A DNA stretch of 64,000 nucleotides from Tropicimonas isoalkanivorans. GTDB taxonomy: Bacteria; Pseudomonadota; Alphaproteobacteria; Rhodobacterales; Rhodobacteraceae. The position numbers and the translations under genes are program-made. A model generated the notes under the pieces. It ran no database searches. It saw only the letters and a program-made list of their open reading frames with translations, and had not been told where the DNA came from. The stretch lies in assembly GCF_900112335.1 (NCBI RefSeq), contig NZ_FOLG01000006.1, positions 62,001 through 126,000 on the forward strand, given 5' to 3'. Shown piece after piece: positions 25,671 to 34,264 of the stretch. Every line of letters begins with the position of its first letter. Position 1 is the first letter of the stretch.

Positions 25671-30412
<4,742 letters not shown>

Positions 30413-30431
30413 GGCACTTTCCGTCGTCAAT

Positions 30432-30466
30432 GTTCCACGACGTTCGCAAATGTTCTTAAAAAGTTC
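30432..30466 (+). promoter_or_regulatory. LexA-type SOS operator (GTTC-N7-GTTC) in a row of GTTC repeats
   Basis: Four GTTC words lie in direct repeat at 30432, 30442, 30452 and 30463, with spacers of 6, 6 and 7 nt. The last pair, GTTCTTAAAAAGTTC, exactly fits the alphaproteobacterial LexA motif GTTC-N7-GTTC. A near match in the other orientation, GAAC-N6-GAAAC, follows at 30490-30504. The array lies 74-108 bp upstream of the 40-residue ORF. Confidence 0.75.
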
Positions 30467-30539
30467 TTTACTTCTCTCCTGGGGTGTGAGAACAAAGGTG
30501 AAACAAACGTTAACGCCCGAGAATGAGAGGACACCGCCC

Positions 30540-30662
30540 ATGTTCGCAGAATTCAAAGCGCTGATCGTCCGGTCCGAGCCCACGCTGCTGGAAGACGCGA
30601 TCGGCGTCGCCTCTCTGGGCGTCCTTCTGGTGGCCGCATTGCACCTGCCCACACTGATCTGA
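30540..30662 (+). CDS. 40-residue membrane peptide downstream of a LexA-like operator
   Basis: The frame encodes an amphipathic, charged N-terminus (MFAEFKALIVRSEPTLLEDA) and one hydrophobic helix (about residues 20-40). GAGAGG stands 9 nt before the ATG. A LexA-type operator lies upstream and a strong terminator downstream, so it looks like a self-contained SOS-induced unit. Small SOS-induced inner-membrane peptides such as Caulobacter SidA inhibit cell division; a similar role is an inference from size, topology and control, not from sequence similarity. Confidence 0.7.
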   Translation: MFAEFKALIVRSEPTLLEDAIGVASLGVLLVAALHLPTLI

Positions 30663-30807
30663 GGAATTTGCCTGCCTGCGACCTGCTGCCCGGCGGCGCG
30701 CATCACCGTCCCCAAATCGATGCGTTGCCTGATTTCTGCCTGTCCCAATGGCTCCGGACCCGCCTCTGCGCCCGAGCCGACCGGTTCAGCACTGTCGCCA
30801 CTTCGCC

Positions 30808-30842
30808 GCCGCCGTCCCAACCGGGATGCGCGGCGGCTTTTT
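30808..30842 (+). terminator. Intrinsic terminator after the 40-residue ORF
   Basis: A two-part stem (GCCGCCG with CGGCGGC, and inner TCCC with GGGA) at 30808-30837 is followed directly by five T. It ends the recG/small-ORF transcription and lies just beyond the 3' end of the convergent ybaK-type gene. Confidence 0.85.
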
Positions 30843-30857
30843 CATGGGGCAGGGGAC

Positions 30858-31337
30858 TCAGTCGTCCGTCTCGACGAACTCGGCCAACTCGCCGCCACAG
30901 GCTCGGCGCAGCCGGTCCGGTGCGACGCCGAAAACATGGCGCGGCGTGCCAGCGGCAGCCCAGACGGTCTCGAAATCGGTGAGCCGTGGGTCGAAGAAGG
31001 CGCGAACAGGGGTCAAGTGGCCCACCGGGGCGACACCGCCGATGGCGAATCCGGTGACGTCGCGAATCCGGGCCCCCCGCGCCGGATGGGCCGCTTCGCC
31101 CAGCAGTGCGGCGACCGCTTCGGTCGACACCCGGTTGCCTCCGGCGGTCACGAAAAGCACCAGCGCTTCGCTCTCCTCCGTCTCCAGGATGATCGACTTC
31201 GCGATCTGGTCGATCTCGCAGCCCACAGCCTCCGCCGCATCCTTGGCGGTGCGGGTGCTCTCGGACATCTCGCGCAAGGTGTAGGTCACGCCGGCGGATT
31301 CCAGTGCGTCCGTCACACGGGTCAGGCTGTTGCTCAT
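30858..31337 (-). CDS. YbaK/EbsC-type aminoacyl-tRNA deacylase
   Basis: A 159-residue YbaK/ProX-fold protein that probably hydrolyses mischarged tRNA such as Cys-tRNAPro. The family pattern is clear: an N-terminal helix (SLTRVTDALESAGVTY), EIDQIAKSIILE with the conserved Lys, ALVLFVTAGGNRVS and FAIGGVAPVGH, then RAFFDPRL. It is divergent from glnE, with 119 bp between starts, and convergent with the SOS-type small gene. Substrate specificity cannot be read from sequence. Confidence 0.88.
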   Translation of the reverse strand: MSNSLTRVTDALESAGVTYTLREMSESTRTAKDAAEAVGCEIDQIAKSIILETEESEALVLFVTAGGNRVSTEAVAALLGEAAHPARGARIRDVTGFAIGGVAPVGHLTPVRAFFDPRLTDFETVWAAAGTPRHVFGVAPDRLRRACGGELAEFVETDD

Positions 31338-31456
31338 GTCACTGCTCCCTTTTTGCCGGCTCCTCTATCTGGGCCCATACGCCCGAATGCAAGATGCACC
31401 CGGCGTCCACCGACCTGTGGATTGACCGTCGCGGGTTCGCGGGCCATCAGTTGTCC

Positions 31457-34264
31457 ATGACGTTTTCCGCCGCGATAACCCGTTCGCCCATTCCCTACGA
31501 CACCGATGCCGCGCGGGATGCTACCGCGCGATTCGAGGACCTTTCGCCAGACGTTCGCGACGTCTTGGCAGGTGCGGCGGGGTGCAGTTCGTACTTGCGC
31601 GGGTTGATGGAGCGGGAGGCGGACTGGCTGCGGGAGGCCTTGGCGGCGGATCCCGCAACCGTTCTGCCGGCAGAATACGAGGCACTGCGTCCCATGGGCG
31701 TCGCGGAGCTGAAGACGGGCCTGCGCCGCGCCAAGGGCCGGGTGGCACTTTTTGCGGGGCTGGCCGATCTCGCGGGCGTCTGGCGGTTGGAGGAGGTGAC
31801 AGGCGCGCTGACCGACTTCGCCGACCTATCGGTCGACCTGGCGATGAAGGGCGTTCTTACGCGCGATTTCGAGCGCGGCAAGTTCCCGGGCCAGACCGAG
31901 ACCGACCTGCCATCCGCCGGTGGCATGGTGGCGCTCGCCATGGGCAAGATGGGGGCGGGGGAGTTGAATTATTCCTCCGACATCGACCTGATCATGCTGT
32001 TCGACGAAAGCCGCTATCCCGAGGCTGACTTCCATGAGGCGCGGTCGAATTTCGTGAAGGCCACGCGGCGGATGACGGCGCTTCTAAGCGACATGACCGG
32101 CGACGGTTACGTCTGGCGGACGGACCTGCGCTTGCGGCCCGACCCCTCCGTCACGCCGGTCTGCCTGTCGATGGAGGCGGCGGAGCGCTATTACGAATCC
32201 GTCGGCCGGACCTGGGAAAGGGCAGCGCACATCAAGGCGCGGCCCTGCGCGGGCGACGTGGCGGCGGGCGAACGGTATCTGGAACGTCTGCGGCCCTTCA
32301 TCTGGCGCCGCCATCTGGACTTCGCAGCGATCCAGGACGCCCACGACATGCGCCTGAAAATCAAGGAGCACAAAGGGCACCATGGCACCCGCTCTCTGGA
32401 AGGGCGGGACCTGAAACTCGGGCCCGGCGGAATTCGCGAGATCGAGTTCTTCACCCAGACCCGCCAGATCATTGCCGGCGGCAGGGATCCGAGCCTCCGC
32501 CTCCGCGGTACCGTTCCTGCACTGGCTCAATTGGCGAAAACGGGTTGGATTCCCATGGAGTTGGCCGAAGAACTTACAACGCACTACCGGGACCTGCGGG
32601 AACTGGAGCACCGGGTGCAGATGGTGGCCGATGCTCGAACCCACGCGCTACCCACCACGCCGGAGGGGTTCGACCGGATTGCACGGATGTGCGGCGAGGG
32701 GGATACCGCAGCCTTCCGGCAGTCCATCGCCGACCGGCTCGATGCGGTCCGGGCTGCTGCCGAACGGTTCTTCGTCCCGCGCGTCGCCGGGGCGGAGACT
32801 CCGGCGGCCGACGTGGAGGAGCCGGAGATCGTCCGGCGCTGGCGGCTCTATCCGGCGCTGCGCTCTGCGCGGGCGCAGGAAATCTTCGAGCGGCTAAAGC
32901 CGGACCTGCTGGCACGCCTGAATGCGGCCCCGCGCCCGGAGGAGGCGCTGCAGGCGTTCGACGGCTTCCTCTCCGGCCTGCCGGCGGGGGTTCAACTCTT
33001 TTCTCTGTTCCAGGCGAACCCGAACCTCCGGGCGCTGATCGTCGACATCGCGTCCACGGCGCCTGCGCTCGCCAGCTACCTGTCCCGCAATTCACAGGTG
33101 CTGGACGCGGTGATCGGGGGCAGTTTCTTTTCCCAATGGCCCGGCAAGGTGGAGCTGGCGCGGGACCTGTCGCAGCGGCTCGAAGCGACGGGCGATTACG
33201 AAGGCCAGCTCGACGTAGCGCGGCGGTGGCAGAAGGAGTGGCATTTCCGGGTGGGGGTACATCACCTGCGCGGGTTGGTGGACGCCGCTGAGGCCGGGAG
33301 ACAGTTCGCGGATGTGGCCGAGGCGGTGCTTGTGGCCTTGCTGCCGGCGATCCAGGAGACGTTTGCCGAGCGGCACGGGCCGATGCCGGGGCGCGGTGGC
33401 GTGGCCGTCGGTATGGGCTCCCTCGGCGCCGGCTGGATCAACGCCAGCTCGGACCTCGACCTGATCATGATCTACGACGCCGAGAAGACGGACATGTCGA
33501 ACGGCCCACGCCCGCTGCCGGCGCCGACCTATTATGCCCGGCTCACCAAGGCGATCCTGACCGCGTTGTCCGCGCCCACGGCCGAGGGGCGTCTATACGA
33601 AGTGGACATGCGGTTGCGTCCGTCGGGAAAACAGGGACCTGTCGCGACGTCGCTGTCCTCCTTCGACACCTATCAGCACGAGGAAGCATGGACGTGGGAG
33701 CATCTGGCTCTGACCCGTTCACGCGCGATCGCTGGCAATTCCAAGGTGGCGGAGGGTGTGGAGCGTGTGCGCCTGTCCGTGCTTTCCGCCCCTCGGGACG
33801 CGGAAAAGGTGCTCGCGGACGTGCGCGATATGCGCCGAAGGCTGGCGGAGGCAAAGGCACAAGAGGGACCGCTGGACGTCAAGCGCGGTTCGGGCGGAAT
33901 GCAGGACATCGAGCTGGTGGCCCAGACGGGCGCGCTGCTGGCCTCGGCACAGGCGCGGCGGACCGCTCCGCAGCTTCACGCGGCGGCTCGCTTTGGCTGG
34001 CTGACACACTCCGAAGCCGAACAGCTTACCTCCACGTACCGGCTGGCGCGGTCGGTGCAGAGCGTCGGGCGTCTCATCGTGGACGGCCCGCTTGAAGTCG
34101 ACGCATTGGGGCAGGGCGCGCGCGAGGTTCTGGCTAGGGAAACCGGGCAAACGGACATCCAGGTGCTGATCGAGGAACTGGCCGCGCGCCGTGCCGAGTC
34201 CGCCGCGATCATTGACGCTGTTCTGGAGCGAATGCCCCCGCGTGCAAAGGCGGGGGCGGCATGA
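31457..34264 (+). CDS. glnE: Bifunctional glutamine synthetase adenylyltransferase/deadenylase
   Basis: Adds AMP to, and removes it from, glutamine synthetase according to nitrogen status. The 935-residue protein contains two nucleotidyltransferase domains, each with the G-X-D-X-D type metal motif (YSSDIDLIMLFDE near residue 175 and ASSDLDLIMIYDAE near residue 665), and a linking helical region. FTQTRQIIAGG and the RGSGGMQDIELVAQT segment support the family. The frame is open upstream, but the ATG at 31457 best fits family length; no strong ribosome site is visible. Confidence 0.93.
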   Translation: MTFSAAITRSPIPYDTDAARDATARFEDLSPDVRDVLAGAAGCSSYLRGLMEREADWLREALAADPATVLPAEYEALRPMGVAELKTGLRRAKGRVALFAGLADLAGVWRLEEVTGALTDFADLSVDLAMKGVLTRDFERGKFPGQTETDLPSAGGMVALAMGKMGAGELNYSSDIDLIMLFDESRYPEADFHEARSNFVKATRRMTALLSDMTGDGYVWRTDLRLRPDPSVTPVCLSMEAAERYYESVGRTWERAAHIKARPCAGDVAAGERYLERLRPFIWRRHLDFAAIQDAHDMRLKIKEHKGHHGTRSLEGRDLKLGPGGIREIEFFTQTRQIIAGGRDPSLRLRGTVPALAQLAKTGWIPMELAEELTTHYRDLRELEHRVQMVADARTHALPTTPEGFDRIARMCGEGDTAAFRQSIADRLDAVRAAAERFFVPRVAGAETPAADVEEPEIVRRWRLYPALRSARAQEIFERLKPDLLARLNAAPRPEEALQAFDGFLSGLPAGVQLFSLFQANPNLRALIVDIASTAPALASYLSRNSQVLDAVIGGSFFSQWPGKVELARDLSQRLEATGDYEGQLDVARRWQKEWHFRVGVHHLRGLVDAAEAGRQFADVAEAVLVALLPAIQETFAERHGPMPGRGGVAVGMGSLGAGWINASSDLDLIMIYDAEKTDMSNGPRPLPAPTYYARLTKAILTALSAPTAEGRLYEVDMRLRPSGKQGPVATSLSSFDTYQHEEAWTWEHLALTRSRAIAGNSKVAEGVERVRLSVLSAPRDAEKVLADVRDMRRRLAEAKAQEGPLDVKRGSGGMQDIELVAQTGALLASAQARRTAPQLHAAARFGWLTHSEAEQLTSTYRLARSVQSVGRLIVDGPLEVDALGQGAREVLARETGQTDIQVLIEELAARRAESAAIIDAVLERMPPRAKAGAA

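Follow-up and report, generated by a model that had tools for sequence, protein, structure and literature searches.

A few model species are known to make small membrane peptides that are induced in the SOS response. TisB of E. coli, a single-transmembrane peptide of this kind, is restrained by an antisense RNA. For DinQ, a second SOS-regulated single-transmembrane peptide of E. coli, restraint by antisense sRNAs has been described (PMC3567139), and Caulobacter SidA is described as a 29-aa SOS-induced inhibitor of the inner membrane that acts on FtsW (PMC4211646), in an alphaproteobacterium whose reported SOS consensus is GTTCN7GTTC (PMC12700426). YneA, SosA and SulA are likewise induced by SOS and are division inhibitors, YneA being described as blocking septal synthesis through FtsW. 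Among the Rhodobacteraceae, Rhodobacter sphaeroides has a small RNA, UdsC, that derives from the 3′-UTR of a hypothetical-protein gene, and the published accounts give it a length of 67 nt and an RpoHII-dependent promoter (PMC9779115, PMC8625941).

We analysed a 64-kb stretch of DNA from Tropicimonas isoalkanivorans (the window, to which all coordinates refer), in which a 40-codon ORF lies behind recG. Like SidA, its product is a very small SOS-type peptide, here predicted to be of the inner membrane, from an alphaproteobacterium with the GTTCN7GTTC LexA consensus; unlike the 29-aa SidA, and comparing by published description, it is approximately 40 aa long, occurs family-wide, is encoded beside recG and is accompanied by a structured 3′ RNA. 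It also resembles DinQ and TisB as a predicted single-transmembrane SOS-type peptide with a putative regulatory RNA nearby, but whereas the RNAs described for DinQ are antisense, here it is the 3′ end that carries the RNA, in cis and with conserved motifs. Our main reading, to which we assign a probability of roughly 0.5, is that one LexA-repressed transcript would specify both a damage-induced inner-membrane peptide, plausibly a brake on division, and a structured 3′ RNA.

The gene order at positions 26091–34264 is ligA, recG, the peptide gene with its RNA, ybaK (reverse strand) and glnE; the NAD-dependent DNA ligase, RecG and glutamine synthetase adenylyltransferase were named by NCBIfam and the YbaK-type gene by Pfam. 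The usual upstream neighbour, recG, which encodes an ATP-dependent DNA helicase, occupies 28322–30412 (NCBIfam NF008164, 1126.6 bits against a cutoff of 785) on the forward strand, as do all features from there to the terminator. The initial annotation of this DNA had pointed out four GTTC words including an exact GTTC-N7-GTTC, and these were confirmed at 30432, 30442, 30452 and 30463, forming a ladder of half-sites (30432–30466) in steps of 10–11 bp, the last two of which make up LexA box 1, GTTCTTAAAAAGTTC (30452–30466). Behind it lie TTTAC (30467–30471), probably the −35 region and conserved at ≥90% in a 59-locus consensus, and a second, degenerate LexA-like element, GAACAAAGGTGAAAC (30490–30504, with GAAC at 30490). 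The 40-codon ORF with a ribosome site behind the box was also found as annotated, at 30540–30662, with a Shine–Dalgarno-like GAGG at 30527–30530 and 73 bp from box 1 to the ATG. Downstream of the stop codon come CUGCCU (30672–30677), picked out by motif enrichment and immediately 5′ of stem P1, the structured 3′ RNA (30678–30798) and, approximately 140 nt from the stop codon, a strong intrinsic terminator (30805–30842) with a 14-bp stem (30805–30818/30823–30837) followed by TTTTT. A simple consensus scan returned no sigma-70 promoters and no terminators (0 of each). The convergent gene downstream, mentioned here for context only, encodes a YbaK/EbsC-type aminoacyl-tRNA editing protein on the reverse strand (30858–31337; PF04073, 2.3e-24).

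Taken alone, the box means little, because GTTC-N7-GTTC occurs six times on the two strands of the window against 2.35 expected (2 of 100 shuffles reach six), the remaining five matches overlapping long mechanical ORFs; the case for an operator therefore rests on conservation. The initial annotation had proposed SOS control and a search of related genomes for the ORF and the box together, and a perfect GTTCN7GTTC was present upstream of the peptide in all 59 protein-selected loci, namely 19/19 from a single-sequence search and 40/40 from a profile search, the latter picked down the better-scoring listed part of the matches, with the weakest matches outside the sample. A GTTC 10 bp ahead of the box is conserved at ≥90% in the consensus of these 59 loci, and GAAC stands 23 bp behind box 1 in 52 of them. 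The partner half-site of the second element (n = 59) reads CAAC in 50 loci, TAAC in four, AAAC in three and otherwise in two, and is never a perfect GAAC; in six diverged genomes (L248, L249, L251, L254, L255 and L257) the second element is a perfect GAACN7GAAC. This motif or its reverse complement was found within 450 nt upstream of both recA and lexA in 15/15 family genomes each. The recA promoter of one relative (G003, locus L151) holds two LexA boxes, GTTCTCAAAATGTTC and GAACAAGGCAAGAAC, and its layout resembles the one in front of the peptide gene.

We also scanned a promoter-only pattern over one genome per species (84,980 species), which gave at least 117 stretches. When 117 promoter-pattern loci were taken together with the 19 loci of the single-sequence search, some of which represent the same genome (e.g. 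L004/L122 and L010/L091), the ORF was present in 135 of 136, and the one locus lacking it (L113) ends 77 nt past the start of the box. The end of recG was upstream in 79 of the 80 promoter-pattern loci listed, the 80th having too little sequence to tell, as well as in 18/19 and 39/40 protein-selected loci. Locus L002, from a genome of the same genus (G002), is the sole one of these 19 for which no recG match was found in the adjoining 1.5 kb, and a ybaK match is present there. As a control we took the 30 best-scoring recG loci of the 73 genomes with a match in a class-wide draw, one of which, L284, ends with recG. Within the 250 nt that follow recG, a box was present in 0/27 testable loci outside the Rhodobacteraceae against 2/2 inside. 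A chance occurrence of the box was rejected on the strength of 59/59 loci in the family against 0/27 outside it. These comparisons with recA and lexA and across loci support the box as the LexA operator type of Rhodobacteraceae, and we regard LexA control of the peptide gene as highly probable. An in silico LexA study of Dinoroseobacter shibae names lexA, recA, dprA, pde2 and flagellar, GTA and pilus genes (PMC6473078); the word recG is absent from its main text.

The single-sequence search of 40 relatives found the peptide gene in 19, made up of 9/9 genomes of the genus (own genome included), 10/15 from the rest of the family and 0/16 from outside. Among 295 Rhodobacteraceae genomes a profile of 32 rows matched 260, covering 259 of 294 genera, and in a class-wide draw it matched 4 of 289 genomes, all four of them Rhodobacteraceae. 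Twelve of the 35 family genomes without a profile match were inspected and recG was present in ten; in seven of these ten, recG is followed by a perfect box of the LexA type and by a hydrophobic ORF, diverged in sequence, of 38–50 codons, so the true share of the family is probably above 260/295. The other three (L252, L253 and L256) have neither box nor ORF at that position, possibly through loss or relocation of both. Judged by these sequence searches, the peptide unit is close to universal in Rhodobacteraceae.

In searches of known families, the window peptide had no Pfam match at E 1 and none in NCBIfam, and no plasmid copies were found by tblastn at E 0.01, a weak test with so short a query. 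The peptides of 32 relatives had no match in PADLOC, one weak Pfam match (DUF3149, 0.02) and none to SulA (PF03846), and three PHROGs families were each matched once and weakly, at E 0.02 or worse.

To assess the coding status of the ORF, we compared the 94 of 135 ORFs with exactly 40 codons and no N in 578 pairs at 62% to <100% nucleotide identity. Differences at codon positions 1, 2 and 3 numbered 7340, 4506 and 11382 respectively, and among the 571 pairs with usable dS, which are not independent of one another, the median dN/dS was 0.29 and dN was below dS in 99.6%. On the codon-position pattern and dN/dS, a non-coding ORF was rejected. The initial annotation had made conservation of the reading frame in relatives one of the points on which its proposal could fail, and on this sequence comparison the frame is under purifying selection as a protein and very probably translated.

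The 32-row alignment shows an invariant start methionine and Asp19, with Gly22, Leu34 and Pro37 nearly invariant; D-x2-G occurs in 162 of 164 distinct peptides, and L-x-L-P is found at the C-terminus. Of the 164 distinct peptides 162 were scored, and 99% of these have a hydrophobic core above 1.6 (Kyte–Doolittle, 15 residues); none of the 162 has Lys or Arg after the core, from which an N-in, C-out topology is predicted. The net charge of the peptide is near zero, and AlphaFold2 places helices at 2–11 and 13–39 with a mean pLDDT of 89.9. The membrane peptide suggested by the initial annotation is supported by hydropathy and by these modelled helices, and we predict a helical, N-in, single-pass inner-membrane peptide. 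In Paracoccus (L076, L098 and L126) the peptides are N-terminally shortened to 31–36 residues and keep the D-x-x-[GS] membrane helix.

The peptide is short and hydrophobic, its gene has a LexA operator, and the untranslated part is long and structured, features that could also belong to a type I toxin-like system in the manner of TisB or of DinQ, the SOS-regulated single-transmembrane peptide with antisense sRNAs mentioned above. Damage would then lead to a depolarized or otherwise altered membrane and slower growth, and either RNA structure or an antisense RNA would keep translation in check. We consider this unlikely, as the conservation of D19, G22, L34 and P37 in the 32-row alignment suggests a specific partner and not a generic pore, and the near-zero net charge also speaks against it. 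A brake on division is our leading guess for what the peptide does, a tentative one that rests on the analogy with SidA and on SulA, the domain of one of the SOS-induced division inhibitors, not being found in 24 relatives with a search that matched the E. coli control. The sequence itself gives no pointer to the divisome in particular. The peptide might instead be a membrane effector related to repair or the envelope, with, for example, a protease, a transporter or the gene-transfer-agent/competence machinery as its partner, and the link reported in Rhodobacteraceae of LexA to the CtrA network as well as to gene transfer agents (PMC6473078) would fit such a role; however, the neighbours checked (recG and ybaK in relatives, recG in the other sets) showed no genomic link to such genes, and we hold this to be improbable.

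The initial annotation made no mention of what lies between the stop codon and the terminator, where we found a conserved and covarying structured RNA of approximately 135 nt. In the centroid fold, the closing stem P1 pairs 30678–30682 with 30794–30798, 30684–30688 with 30787–30791 and 30690–30693 with 30781–30784; P2 (30695–30704/30719–30729) carries a loop with GUCCCC, CUGCCUGUCCC starts at 30736, and P4 is formed by 30750–30757 and 30772–30778. The folding z-score of 30660–30845, a stretch that includes the terminator, was −3.57. A simple rule placed an intrinsic terminator within 400 nt for 120 of the 135 loci, some of the other 15 ending at the edge of the locus, and the median length of the 3′ region is 175 nt. 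Without the terminator, the median z-score was −2.44 with 68% of values below −2 (105 of the 120 regions), compared with −1.19 and 33% in the control, 95 stretches of recG coding sequence that are shifted as well. Upstream of the terminator, CTGCCT occurs 179 times against 12.6 expected from dinucleotide shuffles (in 101 of 120 loci) and CTGTCC 130 times against 12.9 (in 89 of 120).

When 17 chosen folds were compared by eye, most shared a plan in which a long closing stem right after UUUCUGCCU is followed by a UGUCCC-loop hairpin, the CUGCCUGUCCC stretch, a GCCUC-loop hairpin and the terminator; the CUGCCUG/CUGUCCC motifs sit, again by eye, in the tail, loops and linker. We examined these elements with an alignment-free permutation test, which compares the pairing of the two arms within a species with that of arms swapped between species and in which species kinship remains. 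For the closing stem (102 of 120 loci) the energy was −16.8 kcal/mol, against −10.9 (S.D. 0.26) when swapped. The UGUCCC hairpin gave −13.8 against −10.9 (S.D. 0.33; 67 loci) and the GCCUC hairpin −14.4 against −10.8 (S.D. 0.36; 42 loci), with the CUGCCUGU hairpin (P3) weakly supported at −10.7 against −9.2 (S.D. 0.29; 66 loci). Of the 24 pairs in a 40-row alignment, 22 have changed on both sides; pairing holds in 87% of the cells, and 0 of 500 shuffles reach the observed values. These figures are generous because the alignment was fitted to the model. RNAalifold recovered the P2 hairpin alone from this alignment, and we take the permutation test as stronger evidence for the structure than RNAalifold on so wide an alignment. 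Comparison between species supports a structure conserved by compensatory change, and the RNA very likely has a selected role.

A first covariance model was built from seven same-genus sequences and applied to 707 kb, the sequence of 100 of the 136 loci. It had 78 matches at E ≤5, of which 68 fell on the 3′ region (seven being the training sequences) and ten elsewhere; at E ≤0.027, 37 of 38 were on the 3′ region. The refined model, R2, was built without L070, whose match (E 0.025) was off target. It found the RNA at E ≤0.01 in 34 of 40 protein-selected loci, six having no match, or in 32 of 38 after two loci on contigs shared with the training set were dropped, with match starts ranging, relative to the end of the stop codon, from 4 nt upstream to 39 nt downstream. 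Across 40 whole genomes of relatives, R2 matched at E ≤0.001 in 13, each time at the peptide, and its weaker matches include off-target ones (e.g. in G018). In the genome of origin a single match is strong, the one beside the peptide (E 8.6e-16, its own sequence being among the training rows), and the next match has an E value of 0.47. In 61 genomes of the order, 36 had one match each at E ≤0.01 and 25 had none, and the match adjoins the peptide in the 13 of these genomes where the peptide position is listed. The RNA is without a credible match in Rfam: a search of 30400–30900 at E up to 10 gave two matches, both far below gathering, the gathering threshold over 19 loci gave one, a tRNA elsewhere, and E up to 0.5 over 20 loci gave one of 19.4 bits against a gathering value of 50. 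UdsC resembles this RNA in its origin from the 3′-UTR of a hypothetical-protein gene in the same family, but in the present case there are LexA boxes and the RNA body measures approximately 135 nt, and on the published descriptions (PMC9779115, PMC8625941) identity with UdsC was rejected, since promoter type and length differ.

We also asked where the 3′ motifs might pair. Complementarity between the 3′ motif and the peptide's own leader was no better than in shuffles (mean longest match 4.44 against 4.25), so pairing in cis with the peptide's own ribosome site was not supported, and this result counts further against a toxin-like peptide. The RNA could instead be the main product, a LexA-controlled 3′-UTR sRNA whose CUGCCUG/CUGUCCC stretches pair with purine-rich ribosome-binding sites and so repress mRNAs, the peptide being a second activity. 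Both motifs stand at least 10-fold above shuffles in positions that by eye are tail, loops and linker, the structure is conserved by compensatory change and ends in an intrinsic terminator, and 3′-UTR-derived sRNAs such as UdsC are described in R. sphaeroides (PMC9779115, PMC8625941). However, the ORF is selected as a protein and the RNA cannot be all, and a small test for 7-mer complements to the 3′ motifs found just 1/15 recA leaders and 0/15 lexA leaders; we think it doubtful that the RNA is the main product. Somewhat better placed, although still short of probable, is a dual-function SOS transcript, in which the mRNA of the membrane peptide would also yield a multi-loop sRNA with CUGCCUG/CUGUCCC stretches that act in trans. 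The 3′ RNA may be half of the function, and might work by stabilizing the mRNA, by controlling translation of it or in trans.

Returning to the main reading of one LexA-repressed transcript with two products, we infer LexA binding, damage induction, a membrane partner, division delay and RNA activity as its steps. LexA on the perfect GTTCN7GTTC at the promoter, aided by the adjacent GTTC and GAAC half-sites, would keep the unit off, and DNA damage, through the RecA filament and LexA self-cleavage, would switch on this one-gene SOS unit. A peptide of approximately 40 residues would then be made, in which a cytoplasmic helix forms the N-terminal part and a single transmembrane helix, starting with Asp19, comes next, and a face composed of Asp19, the near-invariant Gly22 and the C-terminal L-x-L-P would bind a membrane partner. 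The septal machinery would be the most likely partner, giving a SidA-like delay of division until the damage is repaired, and the structured 3′ RNA would protect the mRNA or be released as an sRNA.

No recognized description of the gene or the RNA was found in the literature searched, largely open-access main texts, and the main texts of sRNA surveys in Ruegeria pomeroyi and Paracoccus denitrificans are without the word recG. The earlier suggestion of an undescribed checkpoint peptide of Rhodobacteraceae holds in so far as this is a gene of the family for which we found no description, whereas the checkpoint role stays an analogy. A small SOS membrane peptide is a known kind of molecule; the Rhodobacteraceae peptide family and its RNA appear to be new.

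The Rhodobacteraceae gain from this work a concrete candidate for a damage checkpoint, encoded beside recG and matched by the profile in 260 of the 295 genomes. With the conserved RNA structure in what is probably an SOS transcript, it can be tested directly whether a DNA-damage response draws on two products of a single message, one a peptide and the other an RNA. If the dual-function reading is true, one LexA promoter would, throughout the family, set off a post-transcriptional programme together with a membrane brake.
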